Below, one piece after another: positions 28,832-41,918 of a stretch of DNA of 64,000 bases. The notes beneath the pieces were generated by a model, which worked only from the letters and a program-made list of their open reading frames with translations, was not told the DNA's origin and did not search any database. Both the position numbers and the translations under genes were made by a program. Position 1 is the stretch's first letter. Every line of letters begins with the position of its first letter. The DNA comes from Roseibium algicola (GTDB lineage: Bacteria > Pseudomonadota > Alphaproteobacteria > Rhizobiales > Stappiaceae), in assembly GCF_001999245.1 (NCBI RefSeq), contig NZ_CP019630.1:3811001-3875000 (forward strand), in the 5' to 3' direction.

Positions 28832-30152
28832 CCGTCGTCCGCTCCGGATCCTGATGACCAACAACACGCTGGATCAACCAGCCGGGTCGGAGCTTTATCT
28901 CAGGGATCTGGCGCTGTCCCTCATGCGGCGCGGGCACTTCCCGGTGGCTTACAGCCAGAGCCTTGGCCCGGTTGCCGACCGTCTCCGAGCGGCGACCATT
29001 CCTGTCGTTGACGACCTGCGGGACCTGTCCGCGGTGCCCGATGTGATCCACGGGCAGCATCATCTGGAAACGATGACGGCCGCGCTTCGTTTTCCGCAAG
29101 TGCCGGTCACCTATACCTGTCACGGCTGGATTCCCTGGCAGGAATGGCCACCGGTCTTCCCGAACATCCTGCACTATGTCGCGGTTGATGACCTGTGCCG
29201 GGAACGTCTTCTGACCAGTGCGGGCGTACCGGCTGACCAGATCTCGGTTCTGCATAATTTTGTCGATCTCGACCGCTTCAGAAAGGTGCGGGACCTTCCG
29301 GACAAGCCGAAGTCCGCACTTGTCTTCAGCAATTCTGCGGCTCAGGTCCCGAAGGCGATACGTGACGCCTGCACCCGCATGGGCATCGAGCGCGTCGATA
29401 TCGTTGGACAGAACTCCGGCCGCTCCGCCGCACATCCGGAGACCATCCTGGCGGACTATGACGTTGTCTTTGCAAAGGCGCGCGCTGCAATCGAGGCAAT
29501 GGCATCCGGATGTGCCGTTGTCGTCATGGATTACGGTCAACTTGGCGGGCTTGTCAGTTCCTCCAATCTGCAAAGCATGCGCGGATTGAATTTCGGCATC
29601 CGAACCTTGCAGAACCAGCTTTTGCATCAGGACAAGATCGAGCGTGAACTGGAGCGTTACGACGCATCGGATGCGCGCGCGGTGACACAGTGGATCAGGG
29701 CGAACGCCGGCCTGGAAGCAGCCGTGGATCGATGGCTGGAAATCTACCACAGGACCATCGAACGCTGGAGTGATGTTGCCGGGACGCTGCACGATGGCGA
29801 GAGACTGACCTCCGCATCGCGCTATGTCAGTCAGCTTGCACCGCGGGTGAAGGCAAAGGAACAGGTGGAACATTGCAAAAACCTCGCCGATGCAGACCTC
29901 AGGGCGGCGAAAGCTCAGTTGGAGCGGGATACGGCAGTCGCTGCCAACAATGATGCGCGACACAAGGCGAGGATCGCTGAACTGGAAAGAGAAGTGCAGG
30001 GCCTGAGGAGGGAATTGCAGGGTCGGAAGAGGGAACTGGAAAGACACAGATTTCCAGGATTGGCTGTCCGGATGGCCTGGCAGGGGTTTGAGAAGCAGGT
30101 TCTCAAGCGGTGCCGCCAGCAGATAGCGTCCTTCAGGAAGCCGAAATCGTGA
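28821..30152 (+). CDS. Glycosyltransferase with C-terminal coiled coil
   Basis: Protein of 443 residues. The N-terminal half is GT4-like: ILMTNNTLDQPAGSELYLRDLALSLMRRGH, then YTCHGWIPWQ and the fold-linking VLHNFVDLDRFRKV. A later segment VFAKARAAIEAMASGCAVVVMDYG matches the donor-binding E-x7-E region of GT-B enzymes. Residues from about 355 to 415 are a charged coiled coil (Lys/Arg/Glu-rich), possibly for oligomerisation or membrane contact. It overlaps the BKACE gene by 11 bp and the oxidoreductase gene by 4 bp. Confidence 0.82.
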   Translation: MQADRRPLRILMTNNTLDQPAGSELYLRDLALSLMRRGHFPVAYSQSLGPVADRLRAATIPVVDDLRDLSAVPDVIHGQHHLETMTAALRFPQVPVTYTCHGWIPWQEWPPVFPNILHYVAVDDLCRERLLTSAGVPADQISVLHNFVDLDRFRKVRDLPDKPKSALVFSNSAAQVPKAIRDACTRMGIERVDIVGQNSGRSAAHPETILADYDVVFAKARAAIEAMASGCAVVVMDYGQLGGLVSSSNLQSMRGLNFGIRTLQNQLLHQDKIERELERYDASDARAVTQWIRANAGLEAAVDRWLEIYHRTIERWSDVAGTLHDGERLTSASRYVSQLAPRVKAKEQVEHCKNLADADLRAAKAQLERDTAVAANNDARHKARIAELEREVQGLRRELQGRKRELERHRFPGLAVRMAWQGFEKQVLKRCRQQIASFRKPKS

Positions 30153-31066
30153 CCCTGCATCTTGCCGAAATTGTCTCCGAGGAACCATTGCGCGTGCTGC
30201 TGGTTGGCCTTGGCAAGATGGGCCAGCTTCATATGGAATGCCTGTCCAAAATGCCCGGCGTTTCTATTGTCGGTATCGTCGATGAAGACGAGGGCAAAGA
30301 GATTGCTGCAAACGGGATCCCGTTCGCGCGATCGATCGATGGTCTCGCCAACGACTTTGCAGCTGCCGTTATTGCGGTTCCTGTCGAAAGGCATGCCGAG
30401 GCTGCCGTTCCGTTGCTCGCACGCGGCATCGATTGCCTTGTCGAAAAACCTTTGTCGCTGTGCCCGGGAGAGATAGAAACGATGATTGCCGCGGCCCGCA
30501 CCGGCGGCGCCAGGCTATCGGTCGCGCAGGTCGAACGTTTCAACCCGGCCATCGAAAGCACGATGGCCGCCTTGCGCAAGCGCTCAGGCAAGGTGCGTGT
30601 GCAACGGCTGTCCCGGATGCAAAGCGTTGCCGGCGGCCCGGACGTGATCGCCGACCTGATGGTGCATGATCTGGACTGGATCGTGAAACTCGAGGGAACA
30701 AGTGACTGCGAGATAACGGTGCTGGAGAGCCGCAGGACGGCAGGCTGCCTGGATTATGTCTGCTGCCGTCTCGGTTTTGGCGACAGATCCTATGAGCTGG
30801 CTGCGGTCCATGGAGCCAGCAAACGGAAGCGCAGCCTTGACGTCTGGCTGGACGGAGATGAAACGCGCTGTTTCGACCTTCTTGCGTTGTCGCCAGACGG
30901 GCGGCCGGATCCGCTGACGCGGCAGGCCGAAGTTTTTGTCATGAGCAGAGCAGGTGACGCGGCTGAACTGGCGACAGCTGAAGAGGCGCTCGCTGTACTT
31001 CGACTGTCGGACGCAATCAGACGATACACACTCGAGACCACAAGGCCACCGGGAGGTGCGGCGTGA
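30149..31066 (+). CDS. Gfo/Idh/MocA-family sugar oxidoreductase
   Basis: NAD(P)-dependent oxidoreductase of 305 residues with the Rossmann motif LVGLGKMGQLH and the family EKP motif (CLVEKPLSLCPGE). A position in a cluster with acyltransferase and aminotransferase genes suggests a WbpB-like role, oxidising C3 of a UDP-sugar before transamination. The frame extends to 30110, but the GTG at 30149 overlaps the glycosyltransferase stop (GTGA) and has AGGAAG eight bases upstream. Confidence 0.85.
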   Translation: MTLHLAEIVSEEPLRVLLVGLGKMGQLHMECLSKMPGVSIVGIVDEDEGKEIAANGIPFARSIDGLANDFAAAVIAVPVERHAEAAVPLLARGIDCLVEKPLSLCPGEIETMIAAARTGGARLSVAQVERFNPAIESTMAALRKRSGKVRVQRLSRMQSVAGGPDVIADLMVHDLDWIVKLEGTSDCEITVLESRRTAGCLDYVCCRLGFGDRSYELAAVHGASKRKRSLDVWLDGDETRCFDLLALSPDGRPDPLTRQAEVFVMSRAGDAAELATAEEALAVLRLSDAIRRYTLETTRPPGGAA

Positions 31067-32181
31067 AGGTGATTGTTCCCTTCGCCGATGTGGTTTCCGA
31101 ATGGCAACCTGTCCGGGCCAAGGCTCTGGAAGGTATCGACAGGGTGTTCTCACATGGGCGTTTTGTCGGCGGTCCGGAAGTCGCCGAGCTGGAACAGAAA
31201 CTTGTCGGGATAACTGGGGCAAGGTTTGCAGTCGCTTGTGCGTCGGGAACGACGGCCCTGCAAATGGCCATGATGGCTCTCGGCATTGGGCCGGGTGATG
31301 AAGTCATTGTTCCGGGCTTTACCTTTATCGCGCCGGCGGAAAGCGCTCTTGTGCTCGGTGCGGAGCCGGTATTGGTAGACGTCCTGCACCCGTCCGGCCT
31401 GCTTGATCCGGATGAACTGGAAACAGCGATTTCCAGTCGCACCAAGGCCATCGTCGCGGTCTCGCTTTTTGGACTGCCTGCCAACTTCGAAGCCATCAAT
31501 TCGATTGCCGCAAGGCACGGAGTTCCAGTGATCGAAGACGCTGCCCAGAGCCTGGGGGCGGGGCTGGAAGACAGGCGGAGCGGCAATCTGGCGGGGCTCG
31601 GATGCACCAGTTTTTTTCCGACGAAGGTGCTCGGTGGGGCTGGGGACGGCGGAGCGGTCTTCACCAATGATGAGGCGCTCGCCAGCGCGCTTCGCGAGAT
31701 CCGTGACCATGGACAAGGCGGCAAGTACCATCACCTGCGGCTGGGGATGAACGGCAGGATGAGTTCGATCGCCGCCGCTGCCCTGCTGGCGCGGCTCGAC
31801 CGGTTCAGCAAGGCGTTGGATCGCCGCCGCAATATCGGTGAGCTATACGACAGGCTCCTCGAACCACTCCGGGAGACTGGTCGTTTGGATTATGTCCGCA
31901 GTCCGGACATGGCAGGCAGTGCCCGTTCGCAATATGCCGTCGTTCTGGAGGATCGCGAAGCGCTTTCCAGAGGTTTACGCGAGGCAGGCATAGAAACGGC
32001 AGTTCATTATCCCGCTCCGCTGCACGACCAGCCGGTTCTGCAGCATTGCCGCCGGTCTGGTCGCCTCGAAACTGCGTCCATGCTGGCAAGCAGGATCCTG
32101 TGTCTGCCCATACATCCGGGCCTGACGGATGAACAGGTGAACTTCACCGTGGAACGCCTTGGCGTGCTCGTCCAAGCCTGA
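31063..32181 (+). CDS. DegT/DnrJ/EryC1-family sugar aminotransferase
   Basis: PLP-dependent aminotransferase of 372 residues. It has CASGTTALQMAMMALGIGPGDEV near residue 58, the PLP aspartate region VIEDAAQSLGA, and the Schiff-base lysine at residue 188 in FFPTKVLGGAGDGGA. The family transfers an amino group from glutamate to a keto-sugar nucleotide. The start is GTG after GGGAGG and overlaps the oxidoreductase stop. Together with the two preceding enzyme types it gives an oxidise-aminate-acylate set. It ends 31 bp from the convergent GT41 gene. Confidence 0.88.
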   Translation: MKVIVPFADVVSEWQPVRAKALEGIDRVFSHGRFVGGPEVAELEQKLVGITGARFAVACASGTTALQMAMMALGIGPGDEVIVPGFTFIAPAESALVLGAEPVLVDVLHPSGLLDPDELETAISSRTKAIVAVSLFGLPANFEAINSIAARHGVPVIEDAAQSLGAGLEDRRSGNLAGLGCTSFFPTKVLGGAGDGGAVFTNDEALASALREIRDHGQGGKYHHLRLGMNGRMSSIAAAALLARLDRFSKALDRRRNIGELYDRLLEPLRETGRLDYVRSPDMAGSARSQYAVVLEDREALSRGLREAGIETAVHYPAPLHDQPVLQHCRRSGRLETASMLASRILCLPIHPGLTDEQVNFTVERLGVLVQA

Positions 32182-32212: not shown

Positions 32213-34186
32213 TCAGGCCCCGGTAAAGTCCAGAAACCGGCGGCTGAACAATGGCCTTGCCTCGTGCCGTGCGATGAGAAGATCGCGCCAGGCAGCGGGA
32301 TAATCGTCCACGGCCAGCATGTCTGTCGTTTCGTGGTCGATGCCGGTGGCAACTTCGAGCAAGGCGTCCAGATCGCTGAGATCGGGTTTTGGTAGCGTAT
32401 TGCTGCGGCATGCCTGCCACATTTCAGCATAAAGATCTTCCAGTTTCGAAACCAGAAGCGGCGTGTCGAAGAGGAGGCAGTCGTCCCGGCTCTCGGTCAG
32501 GCGTTGACGAAGATCCCGCAGCGCTTGGCGGTCCTTGCCGAGGTCTGCTGCGCGCTTCACGTAATCTTCCGGCGTCGGACAGACGAGCTCCTGAAGACCG
32601 GCGGCGGTGACCAGGCTCGCACAGACCCGTGCGGCGAAACATTTTCCGGCAATCGTGAGGACCGGCACGCCCATCCAGAGGGCATCAGAGGCGGTGGTAT
32701 GGGCGCCATAGGGGGTGGTGTCGAGGAAGAGGTCGGCAAGCGGATAACGTGCCAGATGGTCGGGGTTGGCCATCTTCCCGGCAAAAACCAGCCTGTCCGG
32801 AGCAATGCCTGCCGCTTCGGCACAAGCCTTGAGACGCTGGTCGGTTTCCGTTCCGCCGGTCAGCAGCCAGAGAACGCTTCCCGGTACCTTCTTCAGGATG
32901 GCGAACCAGCGGTCCAGGCAGAACCGCGTGATCTTGTGGCTGCCGTTGAAGCAGCAGAACACCGTGCCGTCTTCCGGCAGCCCGAAATCGGAGCGTTGCC
33001 AGATGCGTTCGGACACGACGCGCTTGCGATTGTTCGGCTGGTAGCAGGGCAGGCGCAGAACCTCTTCGGAATAATAGATCTCGTGGTCCTGCGGAATGAT
33101 GATGTCGTCGGCGACGATATAGTGATGGAACGGACTGGCTGTCGTGCCCGGAAAGCCGAGCCAGTTGACGATGACCGGAGCCGGACGCAGTGCGACCAGC
33201 CGCGTGCGGCCTTCCCGGGTATAGCCGTTTACGTCGATCAGGATCTGGATGCCGTCTTCGGCGATCAACCGCGCGGCAGCTTCGTCGTCGATGCCGGAAA
33301 TGGTGCGCCAGTTGTCGGTGGTTTCCCGGAAATTCCGGGTGAGCGGATCATCCGCCGCCGGGCCGCAATCATAGGCGAAGACCTCGACCTTGGACCGCTC
33401 ATGCAGCCCGAACACTTCCGCCATCAGGTGGCCGACGGCATGTTCGCGAAGATCGGACGACAGGTAACCGATCCGCAGCGGGCCGTCGTGCTCCATGGCC
33501 TTTGGCCAGGCCTTCATGGGGGCGGAGGGTGTTCCGACGTCCTGGCGGCTGTAGTCGGCGCAAAGGCCAAGCTGAAACAGGGGGTCGTCGCTGAAGGCCG
33601 CCGCCGACAGGGGCGACATGGCCCGCACCTGCTGTGAAGGCGTTACCCGTTCCAGCGGCTGCACCACCGGCCACTCGCACTGGCGCTGCCGAAGCGCAAT
33701 GAAATGCTGCGCGACTTCCCGTTGGTGCGGGTCGAGTTCAAGGCTCTGGCGCAGCATGCTTTCGGCTAGAACGTCCTGGTTGGCGGCTTCCAGCGTGCGG
33801 GCGATCTGGTTGAGGGCCGTCAGTCGGACGGAGAGCGAAGCCGGCGTCACCGCAAGGGTCTGTTCCAGCACTGTGTTCCACTGGCCAACGGCCGCGCCGA
33901 TATCCCCCTGCTGTTCCAGAACACGGCCGAGGTTGATATGGGCCGCATGAAAGCTCGGATTGAGGTTCAACGCGCGCTCCAGGGTCTCGCGCGCAGCCGC
34001 CAGCTTGCCGGTTTCGGAAAACAGCACAGACTGGTTGAAAAGTACTGCATACAGCAGTGGGTCATCCGGGTTCTGTGCCACCCAGGTGCCATAGAGAACT
34101 TCCGCGGCACCAAAGGAGCCGTTGCCTTTCAGGGCCTCGGCCGCGCCGATGAGTTCAACGATCGACAGGCTGGTTTCATTTGCCAT
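32213..34186 (-). CDS. TPR / GT41 O-GlcNAc-transferase-like glycosyltransferase
   Basis: Protein of 657 residues. Residues about 20-165 are tetratricopeptide repeats (AARETLERALNLNPSFHAAHINLGRVLEQQGD). The C-terminal two thirds is a SPINDLY/GT41 catalytic domain: SSDLREHAVGHLMAEV (H249, H253), VNGYTREGRT, IVNWLGFPGTTASPF and LDTTPYGAHTTASDALWMGVPVLT. GT41 enzymes O-glycosylate Ser/Thr of proteins from a UDP or GDP sugar; the TPRs hold the protein substrate. It is encoded 49 bp downstream of the giant Ser/Thr-rich repeat protein on the same strand, so that protein is the obvious candidate substrate. Confidence 0.88.
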   Translation of the reverse strand: MANETSLSIVELIGAAEALKGNGSFGAAEVLYGTWVAQNPDDPLLYAVLFNQSVLFSETGKLAAARETLERALNLNPSFHAAHINLGRVLEQQGDIGAAVGQWNTVLEQTLAVTPASLSVRLTALNQIARTLEAANQDVLAESMLRQSLELDPHQREVAQHFIALRQRQCEWPVVQPLERVTPSQQVRAMSPLSAAAFSDDPLFQLGLCADYSRQDVGTPSAPMKAWPKAMEHDGPLRIGYLSSDLREHAVGHLMAEVFGLHERSKVEVFAYDCGPAADDPLTRNFRETTDNWRTISGIDDEAAARLIAEDGIQILIDVNGYTREGRTRLVALRPAPVIVNWLGFPGTTASPFHHYIVADDIIIPQDHEIYYSEEVLRLPCYQPNNRKRVVSERIWQRSDFGLPEDGTVFCCFNGSHKITRFCLDRWFAILKKVPGSVLWLLTGGTETDQRLKACAEAAGIAPDRLVFAGKMANPDHLARYPLADLFLDTTPYGAHTTASDALWMGVPVLTIAGKCFAARVCASLVTAAGLQELVCPTPEDYVKRAADLGKDRQALRDLRQRLTESRDDCLLFDTPLLVSKLEDLYAEMWQACRSNTLPKPDLSDLDALLEVATGIDHETTDMLAVDDYPAAWRDLLIARHEARPLFSRRFLDFTGA

Positions 34187-34235
34187 TCGTGGCGGTCCTG
34201 GGTGTGTCTGGTGAGTCGGAATGATGGCGCAAAGA

Positions 34236-37200
34236 TCAGGAGACCGCTACAGCCATGGCGGCGATTTGCTCAGGTGTCATGGTCGCGATCTGTGTCTCTG
34301 TGAAGTGTCCGATCTGGTCAGCGTCGAGCGCTTCGATCGACTGCGGGCCGAGGGCAGCGATCGCCTGCGCGCTGAGCGAACGGATCTGGGTTCCGGTGAG
34401 GCCGGACAGCTGGGCGTAAGACATGGCTCCGATGCGCTCCGGCGCCAGGGCACCCAGCTGCGTGACCGTCAGCGCCCCGACCTGGCGCGAGGTCAGTGCT
34501 CCGAACTGGGTGGACGACAGGATCGAGATTTCACTGCTGGTCAGGTTGGAAACCTGGTTTGCGCTGAGGGAGGCGATCTGGGATGGGGTCAAAGCTGTGA
34601 ATTGCGCATTTGACAGGGCGCGCAACTGCACACGCACGAGACCGGCAAGTTGTGACGCGCTCATTTCGGCGATTTCATCAGGTGACAGCCCCGCCAGCGC
34701 GCTGGTGGAAATGGATCCGACCTGCGCAGCGCTCAGGCCGCTGATCTGGGTCAGGGTAAGCGCTTCGATCTGATTTTCCGAAAGTCCCGCAATCGTCGAC
34801 GGCAAAAGGGCGCCGATCATGGTCGAGGTGAAGGCGGTGAACTGGTCTGCAGACAAGGCGCCAATCTGGGTTGCCGTCATGCCGGAGACCGCCTCTCTGG
34901 CAAGAGCGAGAAGTTGTGTTGTCGCCAGACCGCCGACCTGGTCCGCGCTCAGACCGGAGATCGCCGACGCCGACAGATATTCCATCTGCGAGGTAGAGAG
35001 CGAGCTCAGTTGCGACAGCGTCAGGCCGGCAATGGCGGTGGCGGTCAGGGCCTCCAGTCCGGTCGAACCGAGGGCGCCAAGCTGACCTGAGTTGAACTGG
35101 GAGAGCTGCGCTGCCGTCAGTCCCTTGATGCCGCTGGCCGAAAGAGCCGTAATCTGCGCGGGCTTGAGCGCGGCCAACTGGTCGGTGGTCAGGGAGGCGA
35201 TCTGCGCCCCGGTCAGGCCTCCGGCTGCGGCGGGCGTCAAAAGGCCGATGCGTGTGCTGGAAAGGGAGGCGATCTGGCCGGTGTTCAGTCCGCTGATCGC
35301 AGTGGCCGACAGTGCGCCGAATTGAGGATCTGTGAAGGTGGCAAGCGTCGTTGGCGAAAGCCCGGCAAGCGCTGCTCCGGACAATCCCTCGATCTGGCTG
35401 GTCGTCAGAGCTGTGAGTTGGTCTTCCGACAGTGTACTGATTTGTGCCGCACTCAGACCGGAAACAGCATTTTGGGACAGGGCCGAAACCTGTCCTGTTG
35501 TCAGCGCGGCCAGTTGAGGTGCGGACAGGGCGCCGGCTGCCGAGCTGGAAAGGCCACCCATCTCGATCAGCGATAATTGCGAGACCCGCAGTGGCGTCAG
35601 CGTGCCGATCTGCGTTGCCGTCAAGGCTGCGGCCTGTGTGGCGGTCATGCTCGCCCATTGTCCGCCGGAGAAAGCTGCAAGGCTCGTTGCATCGAGTGCG
35701 GCAATCGTTGTTGTCGAAAGCCCGGCAACATGCTTTCCGCTGAACATGGCGAGCTGGCTGGCTGACAGCCAGGAGAATTGATCGGCCCCCAGACCGGACA
35801 AACCGGAAGGTGTCAGCGCCGCAACCTGACGTGTGCCAAGCGCTCCGATCTGATCCTGGGTGAGAGCGCCGACTTGCGCTGCCGACAACCCCGCAATCTG
35901 TGTCGTTGCCAGTCCGGCTATCGTTGCGCTTTCAAGGGATGCGATCTGCGCTGGTTTGAGAGCTGCAAGTTGACCGGCGGTCAATGCGGAAAACTGCTCC
36001 CCGGACAATCTGGAAAGCACGGCAGTGCCGCTTCCTGCCAGGGCGCCGGGAGCAAGCGCGGCTACCTGATCCGGATCGAACCGGGAGATCTGTTCCTGCG
36101 AAAGGCTCGAGAGGACCGTGGACGAAAGTCCGCCGATACCGGCTGTCGACATTGCAGCGATCTGATTGCCGGTGACGGCGGCGGACTGCTCAGTTGTCAA
36201 GGCACCTGTCTGCCTTGTCGTGAGGGCCTTTACCTGATGTGTGCTGAGGCTGGCGATCGTGCCCGGCGCCAGGCTTGAAATGACACTCGTGGAGAGCCCT
36301 GATATCTGCTCGGAGGTCAGCGACAGCAGTTTGTCCGGGCCAAGCTGGTCTGCCTGGATCGGGGTCAGACCGGCAAGGGCTTTCGAAGACAGGCCGGAGA
36401 TCTGCTTGTCGGTAAGAGCACCCAGTTGCCCGGCACTCATGGCGCCGAGACCTTCGGCGGAAAGCCGCTGTATCTGCGTTTTAGACAGGCTCTCGATCTG
36501 CGTGGTCGATAGCGCTCCGACCTGATCGCCGTTCAGAAGGCCGATGGTGATTGCAGCGAGGCTGGATATCTGGCTGGTCGAGAGTGCGGAAACTGCTGCC
36601 GGAGCAAGGCCTTTCCAGGCTGCGGCTGAAAGCGCGTTCAGTTGTGTTGTCGACAGGGAGGCGGAGGTCGCCGGGCTCAGGCCTGCAGCAGCGTCTCCGG
36701 ATATGGCGCTGACCTGGGTGGTCGTCAGCCCGGCGATCTGGCTGGTCGTGAAAGATCCGATCTGATCAGCCGACAGCGATCCAATCTGTGTTCTCGTGAG
36801 CGCGCTGATCTGTGATGTGGAGAGGGAGGCGGTCTGTGTGGTGGTTAGTCCGGTCAGCGCCGCGGTGCTCAGACTGCTGATCTGTGACCGTGACAGCGCC
36901 GCCATCTGCTCACTCGAAAAGGCTTCAAGGGCTTCATCACCCAGGCCCGCAATTTGTGTGGTGTTCAGGGCCGCAAGCTGTTCGTTGGTAAGGGCGGCTG
37001 CCTGAGTGGCCTTGAGCGCACCAATCGTTCCGGCGCTGAGGCTTTTCACCTGTGTTACCGACAGGGCGGATATCTGGCCGGTGCTGAAAGACTGGATCTG
37101 CGTGGTGGCCAGGCCCGCCATCGCCGTACCGGTCAAGGCGGCCAGCTGGGCATCGCTCAAGGTTGCAATTGCGGTTCGGGTCAAGCCCTTGATCCCGGTG

Positions 37201-40200
37201 GCCGAAAGGGCTGCGGTTTGGGTGGTGGTCAGCGCTTCCACCTGTGCCGTTGTCAGGCGGGTCACCTGCGCCGCGTTGAAACTGGCGATCTGGGTTGCTG
37301 TCAGCGCCGCGATCTGACCTGGCACCAGGGCTTCGAACTGGGTTGCGTTCAAGGCCTTCAACTGAACCCCTGTCAGGCCGTGCAACTGGGCTGTTGTCAG
37401 GCCCGACACGTCGGAGGCGGAAAGACCTGCGAGACCCGTTGCAGACAAAGCGCCGATCTGCTTGTCGCTCAGCGCCAGGATCTGCTCGGGCGACAGCGCA
37501 TCAACCTGATCGTCGGTCAGGCCTTTCATCTGTGTTGTTGTCAGGGAGCCGAGTTGTGTCGTCGTCAGGGCGGCGATGGTCTCTTCACGCAAACCGCCGA
37601 TTGCGGCTGCCGTCAGTTCTCCAAACTGCGCGTTCGACAGAGAGCCGAGTTTGGTCGCCGTCACCGCCGCCATCTGCGTCTGGGTCAGGGCACGCAATTG
37701 CACGGAGCTGAACTGGGCCAGTTGGTCCGCGGACAATGCGGCGATCTGGGTTGCGCCGAGAGATGCGGTCTGTGTGGCTGTCAGTCCGGCAATCTGGGTT
37801 TTCTCAAGCCCCGCAATAACGTCGCTGTTCAGCCCGGCAAGCCCGGAGGCCAACAGCGAGCCGATCTGTTTGGCAGATAGCGCGGCCGCCTGGGTCGAAG
37901 AGAGCACTTCGGTCTGGGTGATGTCGAGGGCGCCTAGTGCGGCAGGTGCAAGGCTTGCCACCTGTGTTGTCGACAGGGAGGCAATCTGGTCCCGGGTCAG
38001 GCCCTTGGCCTGATTGGCGACAAGGGATGTGATCTGCGTTGTCGTGAAGGCATCGAATTGCGCCGTACTCAACTGGCCGACGGCGGTGCTGGAAAGAGCT
38101 GAAACCTGTGTGTTGCTCAGCGCCGCAATCTGGTCCGGTGTCAGAGCAGCGATCTGGCCGGAGCCGAGGGAAGAAATGCCGGCTGCCGAAAGGGCGTTCA
38201 GGCGCTCGCCCTGCAGGGCGGAAACCTGAGCATCCGTCAGGCCGGCAGTGTTGCCGGCAAGGGCTGCAATCTGGGTCGTGGACAACGCCTGGAACTGATC
38301 GGACGACAGCGATGAAACCGCCGATGCGGTCAGGCTTTTCACCTGTGCGCCGGTAAGAGCCGCCACTTGCGTTATTGACAGCGCTGCAAGCTGGTCCGTT
38401 CCAAGGGCGGCGATTGCCTGGCCCGAGAGACCGGCAATCTGGGTCGGGGCAAGCTGGCTGAGCTGGCTCGTCGAGAAAAACCCGATCTGGGAGCCGGTCA
38501 GGCCCGACAGGGCAGTGGCAGTCAGGCTTTCCAGCCTGTCTGGCGTCAGGGCCGCGATATGGCTTTCACTCAAACCGCGGATCTGCGCCGGGGCAAGATC
38601 GGCAAGTTGCGTGTTGCCGAGCGCCGCAAACTGCTCGGCACTCAGGCTTGCGAAGGCGGTTTCGGTCAGGCTCCGCAACTGGCTGGTCGACAGGTTCGAC
38701 AGGAAGCTGCTCGACAGCGCTTCCATCTGCTCCGGTCCGAGCGCGGCAATCGTGGTGGTGGAAAAGCCCTTGATGGCTGTGCTGTTGAAGGCGGCGATCT
38801 GGTCGCTGCTGAGCTGGCGGATTGTCGTGCCATTCAGGGCTAGCGCCTGTGCATAGCCCATCGAGCCGATCTGCTCGGTGCTGAAAGTTCGGAGCTGTCC
38901 GGCGGAAAAGGCCCGCATCTGGGGAGCGGTCAGCGAGCGGACCTGCAGCGAGCCGAGTGCGCCGATCTGGGTTTCATCCAGTGCGGCGATCATTGTGGTG
39001 CCGATGCCGCGCACCTGGTTGACGCTCAAGGCGCCGATCTGGTCGGTCGACAGGGCGTCGAACTGGGTCTCGTTGAACCCTGCGATCACGAAACTGGACA
39101 GGGCGCTCAGGCGTGTGCCGGTAAGAAGCGCGATCTGGGTTTCTTTCAGCGCCTTGCCCTGGGTCGCGGTGATCGAGGTCAGTTGGGTCTCTGTCAGCGC
39201 CTTGAACTGGTCTTCGGAAAACAGCGACAGGTCGCCGGCGGTCAGTCCCTGGAATTGTGTCGTGGTCAGACTGGCGATGCGTGTCTCGCTGAGGCCGGAA
39301 ATGACCTCGTTGTTGAGCGAGGTGATCTGCGTTGCCGAGAAAGACGCGAATTGGTCCGCAGTCAGGGAGGCGACCTGCTGAGCCCCGAGGGCAGCCACCG
39401 CCGTCCGGGTCAATTGACCGATCTGTGAGAAGTTCAGCGCGCCGAGCTGGGTCTCGTTCAGGTAACGCGTCTGGGTCTGGGTAAGGCCCTGGATTTGGGC
39501 CTTGCTGAAATTTGCGATCTGGGGAGCCGTCAGCGCACCGATCTGCGTGGTCGTCATGGCGCCGATGGAGGTTCCGGAAAAAAACCTGATCTGCCCGGGG
39601 CTGAAGGTCTGGATCTGGTCCTCGGAGAAGGACTGGACCTGCCTGGTCGACAGCACGGAGACCTGCTGGGCCGTGAGCCCGGCTAGCTGGGAGGACGTCA
39701 GTGCGGATATTTCCGGCAGCGTCAGCCCTTTCACCTGGGTGGTCGACAGAGTGCCGATATGGGTGGCGGTCAGGGCGCCAAACTGGGTCGTCGTCAGTGC
39801 GGCGATGCTCTGGCTGCTGAGGGCGCGGAACTGGGTGCTGGCGAGCGACAGCAGCGTGTCGACGCTGATCGCCTTCACCTGCGGCATCGTCAGGCTGCCC
39901 ATGTGGGTGGTCGTCAGCTGGCCGGATTGTTCCGCCGTCATTGCCGCAACCTGATCCACGGTCAGATTGCGGAATTGCGACACGCTCAGCATGCCAAGCT
40001 GGGTGCTGGCCATGCCGGAAAACTGTTCCAGGCTCAGGCCCGCCACTCTCGCGGGTGAAAGCGCCTTCACCTGCAGGCTGGTCAGTGCGGAAATATCGTC
40101 AGAGCCGAAATGCGAAAACTGGCTGTCGGAGAACCCGGCAAGGACGGATGTCGCAAAGCTCTTGACCTGACCGGGCGAAAACGCCTCGATCTGTGTTCCG

Positions 40201-40547
40201 GAAAGATCCTGGATCTGGGTGGCGGAAAGGGCGGCGATCTGGGGTGCCGTCAGTGCCTGCAACTCGCTCGCGGAAAAACCGGCAAGGTCCTCCGCCGTCA
40301 GTTGCCGGATCTGGGTGGTGGTCAGCGCGCGGATATGGTCCGCGTCGTCCGAACTGACTTCCTGGTAGGTGATCGCATCGTAACTGGCGAGCGTCTGGGA
40401 CGAGGTGAGGGTGCTGGTTCCAGATCCCGTCGTCGTTTGTCCGGAAGTTGTATCGGAAGATGGCTCCTCCGTGGCCGGAGACACCGACGTGCTTGCAGGT
40501 GAGACGTAGAAGGTTGCCGCGCTGGGCGTGGCGTTGATTGTCGTCAC
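34236..40547 (-). CDS. Giant octapeptide-repeat protein
   Basis: Protein of 2103 residues. Residues 1-70 are a Ser/Thr-rich low-complexity leader with no signal peptide. From about residue 72 to the end it is a nearly unbroken series of roughly 250 octads with consensus [A/G/S]-[L/F]-[S/T]-x-x-Q-[I/V/L]-x, for example ALTTTQIG or GLSADQIA. The register is almost perfect; one 7-residue unit (ALAGNTA) was found. The S/T-x-x-Q box is a helix N-cap pattern, so a solenoid of tiny helices is plausible. No enzyme motif or RTX repeat was seen, and there is almost no Cys or Trp. The start is GTG with no Shine-Dalgarno upstream. A role as glycosylated surface or structural protein is inferred from the adjacent GT41 gene. 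Confidence 0.9.
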   Translation of the reverse strand: MTTINATPSAATFYVSPASTSVSPATEEPSSDTTSGQTTTGSGTSTLTSSQTLASYDAITYQEVSSDDADHIRALTTTQIRQLTAEDLAGFSASELQALTAPQIAALSATQIQDLSGTQIEAFSPGQVKSFATSVLAGFSDSQFSHFGSDDISALTSLQVKALSPARVAGLSLEQFSGMASTQLGMLSVSQFRNLTVDQVAAMTAEQSGQLTTTHMGSLTMPQVKAISVDTLLSLASTQFRALSSQSIAALTTTQFGALTATHIGTLSTTQVKGLTLPEISALTSSQLAGLTAQQVSVLSTRQVQSFSEDQIQTFSPGQIRFFSGTSIGAMTTTQIGALTAPQIANFSKAQIQGLTQTQTRYLNETQLGALNFSQIGQLTRTAVAALGAQQVASLTADQFASFSATQITSLNNEVISGLSETRIASLTTTQFQGLTAGDLSLFSEDQFKALTETQLTSITATQGKALKETQIALLTGTRLSALSSFVIAGFNETQFDALSTDQIGALSVNQVRGIGTTMIAALDETQIGALGSLQVRSLTAPQMRAFSAGQLRTFSTEQIGSMGYAQALALNGTTIRQLSSDQIAAFNSTAIKGFSTTTIAALGPEQMEALSSSFLSNLSTSQLRSLTETAFASLSAEQFAALGNTQLADLAPAQIRGLSESHIAALTPDRLESLTATALSGLTGSQIGFFSTSQLSQLAPTQIAGLSGQAIAALGTDQLAALSITQVAALTGAQVKSLTASAVSSLSSDQFQALSTTQIAALAGNTAGLTDAQVSALQGERLNALSAAGISSLGSGQIAALTPDQIAALSNTQVSALSSTAVGQLSTAQFDAFTTTQITSLVANQAKGLTRDQIASLSTTQVASLAPAALGALDITQTEVLSSTQAAALSAKQIGSLLASGLAGLNSDVIAGLEKTQIAGLTATQTASLGATQIAALSADQLAQFSSVQLRALTQTQMAAVTATKLGSLSNAQFGELTAAAIGGLREETIAALTTTQLGSLTTTQMKGLTDDQVDALSPEQILALSDKQIGALSATGLAGLSASDVSGLTTAQLHGLTGVQLKALNATQFEALVPGQIAALTATQIASFNAAQVTRLTTAQVEALTTTQTAALSATGIKGLTRTAIATLSDAQLAALTGTAMAGLATTQIQSFSTGQISALSVTQVKSLSAGTIGALKATQAAALTNEQLAALNTTQIAGLGDEALEAFSSEQMAALSRSQISSLSTAALTGLTTTQTASLSTSQISALTRTQIGSLSADQIGSFTTSQIAGLTTTQVSAISGDAAAGLSPATSASLSTTQLNALSAAAWKGLAPAAVSALSTSQISSLAAITIGLLNGDQVGALSTTQIESLSKTQIQRLSAEGLGAMSAGQLGALTDKQISGLSSKALAGLTPIQADQLGPDKLLSLTSEQISGLSTSVISSLAPGTIASLSTHQVKALTTRQTGALTTEQSAAVTGNQIAAMSTAGIGGLSSTVLSSLSQEQISRFDPDQVAALAPGALAGSGTAVLSRLSGEQFSALTAGQLAALKPAQIASLESATIAGLATTQIAGLSAAQVGALTQDQIGALGTRQVAALTPSGLSGLGADQFSWLSASQLAMFSGKHVAGLSTTTIAALDATSLAAFSGGQWASMTATQAAALTATQIGTLTPLRVSQLSLIEMGGLSSSAAGALSAPQLAALTTGQVSALSQNAVSGLSAAQISTLSEDQLTALTTSQIEGLSGAALAGLSPTTLATFTDPQFGALSATAISGLNTGQIASLSSTRIGLLTPAAAGGLTGAQIASLTTDQLAALKPAQITALSASGIKGLTAAQLSQFNSGQLGALGSTGLEALTATAIAGLTLSQLSSLSTSQMEYLSASAISGLSADQVGGLATTQLLALAREAVSGMTATQIGALSADQFTAFTSTMIGALLPSTIAGLSENQIEALTLTQISGLSAAQVGSISTSALAGLSPDEIAEMSASQLAGLVRVQLRALSNAQFTALTPSQIASLSANQVSNLTSSEISILSSTQFGALTSRQVGALTVTQLGALAPERIGAMSYAQLSGLTGTQIRSLSAQAIAALGPQSIEALDADQIGHFTETQIATMTPEQIAAMAVAVS
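34300..40330 (-). repeat. 24-bp-period coding repeat array
   Basis: The DNA encoding the octads repeats every 24 bp, but with strong third-position and residue divergence, so no two neighbouring units are identical over long stretches. It is therefore an old or selected array rather than a recent expansion. Boundaries are approximate. Confidence 0.8.
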
Positions 40548-40958: not shown

Positions 40959-41918
40959 ATGTCCCTTCCCATACTGATCACCGGAAGTGCCGGCCTTATC
41001 GGGTCCGCCCTTGTGGACACGCTGACGGCGCTGGGCCGTCCTGTCCGTACGTTTGATATTGCCGATGCTGGGCAGGACAGCCGCAACGGCGCTGCGGTTG
41101 AAGACGCGGTGCGGGGCTGCAGCGGCGTTATTCACCTGGCAGCAGTGTCCCGGGTGCTTTGGGGCGAGCATAATCCCGTGCTGTGCCGGGAGGTGAATGT
41201 CGGGGGAACCCGCAACGTTCTTGCAGCTGCTGCAAGTAGCGGGAGCCGCCCCTGGGTTCTCTTCGGCAGCAGCCGGGAAGCTTATGGGCCGGTCACCCGA
41301 TTTCCGGCAGATGAAGACACTGCACGCTGCCCGATGAATGTCTATGGACGGTCAAAACTGGCAGGCGAGAAGCTGGTGGAGGCAGCCCAGGAGGCCGGTG
41401 TCAAGGCCGCTATCCTGCGGTTCTCGAACGTCTATGGCCGGATTTCCGATCATGCGGACCGTGTTGTTCCCGCCTTCGCAAGAGCCGCCGCCGAAGGGCG
41501 CAGATTGCAGGTCGAGGGCCGCAATCATGTCTTCGACTTCAATTATCTGGATGATGTCGTTGACGGTATTCTGAAGATGGTCACTTTCATCGAGGCGGAA
41601 CGGAAGGCGTCGCCGCCTGTGCAATTCGTCTCCGGGGTCGGCACCAGCCTGACCGAACTTGCCGAAGCCAGCGTACGGCTTGCCGGAACGGCCGCCGAAA
41701 TCCACCATGTCGGGCCGCGCAGCTTCGACGTCAACGGCTTCGTCGGATCGGGGGAAAGAGCCCGGCAATTGCTTGGCTGGCAAACGAAGACAAGCATAGA
41801 GGAAGGGCTTGCGCATATGGTTCGGGCCTTTGCGGATGCAAATGGCGAGGCGCAGCTTGCAGAGACTACATGTGCCTTCAGTGCAGGTGCTACTGACCCC
41901 GGTCTGTCCGCTGTTTGA
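40959..41918 (+). CDS. NAD-dependent sugar epimerase/dehydratase
   Basis: Extended short-chain dehydrogenase of 319 residues with the N-terminal TGSAGLIGS glycine motif, HLAAVSR, and the catalytic YGRSK (Tyr and Lys four residues apart). Substrate-side features such as RFSNVYGR and FNYLDDVVDGI are typical of UDP-glucose/UDP-glucuronate 4-epimerase-like enzymes. It could supply a nucleotide sugar to the GT4 or GT41 enzymes nearby. It has no clear Shine-Dalgarno element. Confidence 0.85.
   Translation: MSLPILITGSAGLIGSALVDTLTALGRPVRTFDIADAGQDSRNGAAVEDAVRGCSGVIHLAAVSRVLWGEHNPVLCREVNVGGTRNVLAAAASSGSRPWVLFGSSREAYGPVTRFPADEDTARCPMNVYGRSKLAGEKLVEAAQEAGVKAAILRFSNVYGRISDHADRVVPAFARAAAEGRRLQVEGRNHVFDFNYLDDVVDGILKMVTFIEAERKASPPVQFVSGVGTSLTELAEASVRLAGTAAEIHHVGPRSFDVNGFVGSGERARQLLGWQTKTSIEEGLAHMVRAFADANGEAQLAETTCAFSAGATDPGLSAV

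Follow-up and report, generated by a model that had tools for sequence, protein, structure and literature searches.

A conserved gene pair for a giant octapeptide-repeat protein and a GT41 glycosyltransferase in Roseibium algicola and other bacteria

A 64,000-nucleotide stretch of the Roseibium algicola genome (NZ_CP019630.1, positions 3,811,001 to 3,875,000; hereafter the window) encodes on its reverse strand a 2103-residue protein composed mostly of tandem octapeptides, or octads, followed by a glycosyltransferase of family GT41 that carries tetratricopeptide repeats (TPR). The human O-GlcNAc-transferase (OGT) belongs to the same enzyme family. The pairing of octad and GT41 genes is conserved and specific to particular clades of the enzyme, and is found in Pseudomonadota, Verrucomicrobiota and Thermodesulfobacteriota; its occurrence in Myxococcota is known from metagenome assemblies alone. 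We read the pair as a two-gene module in which a giant elongated alpha-solenoid would be modified by a dedicated cytoplasmic OGT-type glycosyltransferase and then exported, and we put the probability of this reading at roughly 0.7. The presence of the pair across phyla suggests an undescribed system, one that probably coats a giant protein rod with sugars; no paper on such a module was found in the open-access literature searched.

The octad protein and its GT41 neighbour

The features of the gene pair, all on the reverse strand, are as follows.

34236..40547, reverse strand: octad-repeat protein gene, 2103 residues, PF20080 (ALTTAQ repeat), GTG start
40329..40547, reverse strand: residues 1-73, N-terminal stretch rich in Ser, Thr and Pro that lacks regular octads, with an uncertain start codon
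38265..40328, reverse strand: octad array 1, residues 74-761, 86 unbroken octads (register search)
38244..38264, reverse strand: sole register break, 7 residues, 762-768 (register search)
34260..38243, reverse strand: octad array 2, residues 769-2096, 166 unbroken octads (register search), of which residues 1889-2048 are modelled as a short-helix solenoid
34187..34235, reverse strand: 49-bp spacer between the two genes, with a CAGGA stretch before the GT41 ATG that is Shine-Dalgarno-like by eye
32213..34186, reverse strand: TPR-containing GT41 glycosyltransferase gene, 657 residues, ATG start, PF13844 and TPR families

Register search places 252 octads in residues 74-2096 with a single 7-residue break, which bears out the initial annotation of some 250 tandem octads; four more placed within residues 1-73 are taken as chance. 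Self-identity of the protein at lag 8 is 0.30, against a mean of 0.08 at lags that are not multiples of eight. The consensus is [AGS]-L-[ST]-x-x-Q-[ILV]-x. Over the 256 placed octads, position 2 is Leu in 80% and Phe in 12% (92% together), position 3 is Ser or Thr in 75% (192/256) and position 6 is Gln in 65%. Segments of 160 residues share only 31-39% identity with the first segment, so the array does not look recently expanded, and the repeats and sites are looser than the near-identical ones first described. The protein matches PF20080 in 43 stretches with 697.8 bits (curated cut-off 26.4); no paper using the name ALTTAQ repeat was found in the literature searched. The codon immediately before the GTG start is a stop, and no clear Shine-Dalgarno sequence is seen ahead of it, leaving the precise N-terminus uncertain. 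By eye the protein shows no signal peptide, and no RTX or autotransporter family is matched at E ≤ 0.01 in Pfam or NCBIfam, in agreement with the absence of RTX motifs noted at the outset. The lack of RTX nonapeptide repeats does not in itself exclude a type I secretion route.

Modelling of 10-20 octads had been proposed in the initial annotation, and AlphaFold2 predicts residues 1889-2048 as a confident short-helix solenoid with a predicted local distance difference test score (pLDDT) of 93.5. Each modelled unit consists of a three-residue turn and a five-residue helix, with the position-3 Ser/Thr directly preceding the helix as its N-cap. The octads of HeliScrew4 (PDB 9zem) likewise carry the position-3 Ser/Thr, although HeliScrew4, a chain of 120 residues designed to judge by its name, is unlike the giant natural protein of the window. 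The octad model resembles mesothelin, an animal cell-surface protein for which a superhelix is predicted (PMC2628672); the similarity is one of fold alone and shows no kinship. The model also resembles the fold of a phage receptor-binding protein.

The second gene lies 49 bp downstream on the same strand, as first annotated, and no terminator-like site is listed within the spacer. Its product matches PF13844 with 274.6 bits (cut-off 25) as well as TPR families of Pfam, and comprises a helical TPR part (about residues 9-168) and a GT-B part (about 235-594). The AlphaFold2 model (pLDDT 90.3) displays both a TPR superhelix and a GT-B fold and matches OGT and XcOGT in Foldseek with E of about 1e-32; XcOGT and human OGT are the best matches of the enzyme in both sequence and structure. 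The lysine and the HTTxxD residues that align to OGT are invariant in 10/10 aligned octad-linked enzymes.

Conservation and clade specificity of the pair

Profile searches with PF20080 and PF13844 were run on an order sample of 249 genomes drawn evenly, of which 14 contain PF20080 and 42 contain PF13844. Ten of the 14 have at least 22 repeat hits, and all ten carry a GT41 open reading frame (ORF) on the same strand 7-139 bp downstream; the remaining four (G121, G150, G198 and G248) have 1-4 repeat hits and no GT41. The eight further sample members from the genus and family of the window have neither PF20080 nor PF13844. PF20080 occurs in 6/385 genomes of a class sample and 28/398 of a phylum sample, and these add 31 octad genomes, 22 with GT41 and nine without. 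Three of the 22 (G918, G935 and G449) have the two genes side by side, two (G422 and G517) have about 6 kb between them, and in G288 they are far from each other. The remaining 16 come from one family, f240; at least seven of these genomes carry both genes on a single contig, no more than about 13 kb apart, a lower bound since it counts the matches listed only and the assemblies are fragmented. Genomes of f240 (G659, G704, G716 and others) show up to 44 GT41 hits each, with one enzyme often giving two, and several octad ORFs each, with open frames of up to 6436 residues. Eight of the nine genomes without GT41 have six or fewer repeat hits, and the ninth (G955) has 20. In a further family, f24, PF20080 is found in 29/199 genomes; 25 of these have at least 29 hits, and 19 of the 25 also encode a GT41. 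Both ORFs lie within 2 kb of each other, in varied orientation, in ten of the 19, which were picked since the search lists showed a GT41 nearby. Of the other nine, four have the genes within about 10 kb among the matches listed, and G1057 has them on different contigs.

The association is equally apparent from the side of the enzyme. A scan of the genome collection with an alignment of ten octad-linked GT41s returned at least 578 relatives, the best 80 of which were analysed; being seeded with linked enzymes, it informs on their clade and not on all GT41s. An octad ORF lies upstream on the same strand in 68 of these 80 loci, with a median gap of 73.5 bp and a gap of at most 276 bp in 67 of the 68. 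L060 and L047 denote one contig. Together with the ten of ten order-sample genomes, this is a strongly positive outcome for the co-occurrence search suggested initially. The 12 other loci comprise L136, with an octad fragment at the contig start that the pattern threshold used to call octad ORFs missed; L088, L110 and L114, with a divergent octad gene; L137, in which type I secretion genes lie between the GT41 gene and a downstream octad gene; L062, L083 and L100, with little or no upstream DNA; and L118, L128, L130 and L135, with no octad on the sequenced stretch examined. The 68 linked loci fall into Pseudomonadota (56), Verrucomicrobiota (5), Thermodesulfobacteriota (4) and Myxococcota (2), with one unassigned. 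Outside Pseudomonadota, record titles mark only L061 (Opitutaceae EW11) and L067 (Solidesulfovibrio alcoholivorans) as other than metagenome assemblies, hence the restriction on Myxococcota given above. The closest relative of the window enzyme among the best 80 is that of Roseibium suaedae (Stappiaceae), with 69% identity. Loci of other GT41s contain an octad ORF in 0/33 cases (about 5 kb on each side, less at contig ends).

A gene of Cereibacter sphaeroides pA annotated as 'ICE nucleation protein' (L142, 952-5637) encodes an octad-repeat protein, with a GT41 gene and genes for type I secretion next to it. In a plasmid of Pseudomonas asturiensis (L140, 1569-8860) the octad protein extends over three annotated frames, one of them called 'heme utilization protein', and adjoins a GT41 gene and TolC, HlyD and ABC genes.

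A tree of GT41 domains (quick search, LG+G4, SH-aLRT support only) was built from 93 of 155 hits. Hits covering fewer than 350 profile positions were left out, thinning by locus number removed 49 of the 80 loci, and loci with a divergent or missing octad gene were kept by hand. An enzyme was labelled as octad-linked if an octad ORF lay no more than 7 kb away on the sequenced stretch examined, and 41 of the 93 have none within this distance. Two clades, each with 100% support, hold the linked enzymes: the first contains 48 GT41s, 45 of them linked (the exceptions being L128, L130 and L135), and the second nine, seven of them linked. The second clade is a tandem paralogue found in Azospirillaceae and Roseomonas-type loci, and also includes G935 and the plasmid enzymes of Pseudomonas asturiensis and Cereibacter sphaeroides. 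The remaining 36 GT41s have no octads. The octad label changes seven times on the tree, compared with 30.6 times in shuffles. Six loci (L130, L135, L137, L141, L178 and L179) carry two tandem GT41s, one from each octad-linked clade; HlyD is near all six, and a UDP-glucuronate decarboxylase is present at five.

This clade-specific pairing across phyla argues against the view that the enzyme is a general or flagellin glycosyltransferase, to which the octad protein would be one client or a mere neighbour. Precedent for such an enzyme exists in FlmG of Caulobacter, a TPR protein that modifies flagellins in the cytoplasm (in the excerpted text of PMC7591256), and on a Pseudorhizobium flavum plasmid (L138) the octad/GT41 pair adjoins flagellin and flagellar hook genes. 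Flagellin genes are seen beside this one pair; the conserved neighbour is the octad gene, and no flagellar family appears among the few window neighbours annotated. We consider a general or flagellar role improbable.

Candidate acceptors, donor sugars and export

In the module that we favour, the TPR part of the enzyme would hold the solenoid, as the TPR part of FlmG holds flagellin, and the GT-B part would use a nucleotide-activated sugar to glycosylate Ser/Thr in the helix's first turn (octad positions 4 and 5) in many of the repeats. The modification would take place in the cytoplasm, before export. The coated rod would then be exported, by type I secretion in some lineages, to form a fibre at the surface or in the matrix that might serve in adhesion.

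Ser/Thr residues were counted in one octad ORF of at least 200 residues per locus, with positions 4 and 5 ignored when the octads were registered. The 86 octad proteins at GT41 loci have a mean Ser/Thr content of 80% at position 3, 60% at position 4 and 70% at position 5, whereas seven proteins from GT41-free genomes range over 67-84%, 17-66% and 9-25%, respectively. Since the position-3 residue is the N-cap in the model and is equally common in genomes without GT41, we take it as a structural feature that provides no evidence of glycosylation. The proposal that the conserved octad Ser/Thr are the glycosylation sites thus finds no support, the same residue being present in HeliScrew4 as well. 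Positions 4 and 5, at the start of each helix, are better acceptor candidates, because Ser/Thr there, unlike at position 3, tracks the presence of GT41. The linked proteins average 1.30 Ser/Thr per octad at these two positions. Within f24, ten linked proteins have 1.01 (range 0.76-1.31) compared with 0.61 (0.51-0.82) in six GT41-free ones, a contrast with a one-sided Mann-Whitney p of 0.00025 that ignores relatedness, and at position 3 no difference is seen (p=0.55). Second octad genes located away from GT41, in genomes with a GT41 elsewhere, have 0.61-1.08.

Apart from that disregard of relatedness, several findings weigh against the proposed module. At positions 4 and 5 the protein of the window has less Ser/Thr (0.77) than any other of the 86 linked proteins, a value within the GT41-free range (up to 0.82). 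The enriched position varies, being 5 in most linked proteins and 4 in f24, L138-L140, L142 and L181. No close UDP-glucuronate decarboxylase is encoded in the genome from which the window is taken (three matches, 27-30% identity), and 95 of 110 pairs have no HlyD hit nearby. Finally, six of the 25 strong octad genomes of f24 (G955, G990, G1019, G1059, G1083 and G1129) have no GT41; therefore, the solenoid can exist without the enzyme. Octad genes without GT41 had been named initially as a pattern that would speak against the pairing; they occur with long arrays in this one family.

The long octad proteins of these six genomes, like the N-cap position of the position-3 residue and its equal frequency without GT41, would fit a purely structural octad protein whose Ser/Thr cap helices, with the TPR-GT41 protein acting mainly as a chaperone or tether and glycosylating little. 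Such a role would leave unexplained the invariant motifs of the catalytic domain in the aligned enzymes, the sugar-nucleotide enzymes beside some pairs and the covariation of positions 4 and 5 with GT41, and we assign it a small probability. The initial claim that the giant protein is the GT41 substrate and a glycosylated fibre accordingly keeps the backing of the conserved, clade-specific pairing and loses that of the conserved position-3 Ser/Thr.

Genes for sugar nucleotides and type I secretion recur beside a minority of the pairs. We scanned 110 pairs, made up of the 80 loci and 30 further pairs, with flanks of 8 kb compared with about 5 kb at octad-free loci, so that the rates are not strictly comparable. 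The 80 loci include 13 with a short-chain dehydrogenase/reductase (SDR) resembling UDP-glucuronate decarboxylase, 12 of these with a CYDEGKR-type motif, which we take to be typical of that enzyme; HlyD is present in 11 and an HlyB-type ABC transporter in five. One motif-bearing SDR is annotated as UDP-glucuronate decarboxylase in Pseudoroseomonas. The 30 further pairs add seven motif-bearing decarboxylases, four HlyD, four transporters and three UDP-glucose dehydrogenases, giving totals of 19 motif-bearing decarboxylases, 15 HlyD and nine transporters over the 110 pairs. At 34 octad-free GT41 loci no decarboxylase, HlyD or transporter was found, and a single UDP-glucose dehydrogenase; none of the four was found at 11 octad loci without GT41 on them. 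Annotated secretion genes beside the pair include TolC, HlyD and ABC genes on the Pseudomonas asturiensis plasmid, and ABC and HlyD genes in Cereibacter sphaeroides pA and Pseudoroseomonas cervicalis.

The window's pair is flanked by two sets of putative sugar genes.

40959..41918, forward strand: NAD-dependent nucleoside diphosphate-sugar epimerase/dehydratase (SDR), divergent from the octad gene
30110-32181, forward strand: Gfo/Idh oxidoreductase (UDP-GlcNAc 3-dehydrogenase-like) overlapping a DegT/PseC-like aminotransferase, convergent, ending 31 bp from the GT41 stop

The SDR, which has a relative at the corresponding place in Roseibium suaedae (L058, 310-1293), is a possible donor-sugar enzyme, and the two overlapping genes possibly belong to an amino-sugar pathway. 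In its most specific form, the module would have the OGT-type enzyme decorate one edge of the solenoid at most repeats, with a UDP-glucuronate-derived pentose (xylose) where the decarboxylase is present and a different sugar in other lineages. The glycan-studded rod would then leave by type I export, and the system would span several phyla; in this full detail we hold it only tentatively, and as unlikely.

A competing account does without export: the glycosylated octad protein would remain intracellular, forming a filament or scaffold in the cytoplasm. GT41 enzymes are cytoplasmic. No signal peptide stands out, no export or type I secretion genes are seen beside the window's pair, most pairs are without a nearby HlyD, and FlmG too is cytoplasmic (PMC7591256, excerpt). 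The HlyD genes beside 15 pairs and the TolC/HlyD/ABC set of the Pseudomonas asturiensis plasmid speak against retention, as does a signature in the C-terminal octads (Phe, then Met/Leu, at position 2), present in 47 of 84 complete tails and 176 of 4352 internal windows by a pattern written after the tails had been inspected. This signature is perhaps a recognition or capping element. An intracellular fate thus appears a real possibility, though less probable than not. The surface fibre envisaged initially draws some support from the type I secretion genes that a minority of pairs have as neighbours, and none from those of the window's own pair. The octad proteins of L181 and L140 carry an additional segment at the C-terminus bearing a Y-x-V-[YF]...L-V pattern, which is known from type I secreted adhesins.

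Comparison with known glycosylation systems

To our knowledge, most bacterial OGT homologues have no known substrate. Here, one GT41 clade comes with its probable substrate adjacent in dozens of species, some of them cultured, which makes enzyme, acceptor and donor directly testable. With possible sites in each octad, the solenoid would provide a natural ruler for studying TPR-guided glycosyltransferases along a repetitive rod and, if the proposed module is real, a new type of glycoprotein fibre for work on materials and adhesion.

OGT acts on many client proteins. The window enzyme shares family and fold with XcOGT and human OGT, and enzymes of its type have one conserved genomic partner. TibC, a dedicated glycosyltransferase of another family, acts in the cytoplasm. 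FlmG of Caulobacter, a soluble O-glycosyltransferase of the cytoplasm, binds flagellin through its TPR N-terminus before export, and its sugar is pseudaminic acid (PMC7591256); it likewise contains TPR, but its substrate is flagellin, where the conserved partner of the window-type enzyme is an octad solenoid. TibC, a heptosyltransferase forming a ring-shaped dodecamer, hyperglycosylates TibA/AIDA-I (PMC4358343) and offers the likeness of a dedicated enzyme with a large secreted protein, although its substrate is an autotransporter. HMW1C of Haemophilus is placed in GT41 and acts on the large secreted adhesin HMW1 (PMC3012730), but it lacks TPR and modifies Asn. The window enzyme has TPR and scores 23.2 bits of the 1000 set for the HMW1C model NF049992 (NCBIfam), and neither window protein matches a heptosyltransferase or autotransporter-barrel family at E ≤ 0.01 in Pfam or NCBIfam. 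The module would thus work in the manner of the dedicated adhesin glycosyltransferase systems TibC/TibA and HMW1C/HMW1 while being, by the features tested, a member of neither.

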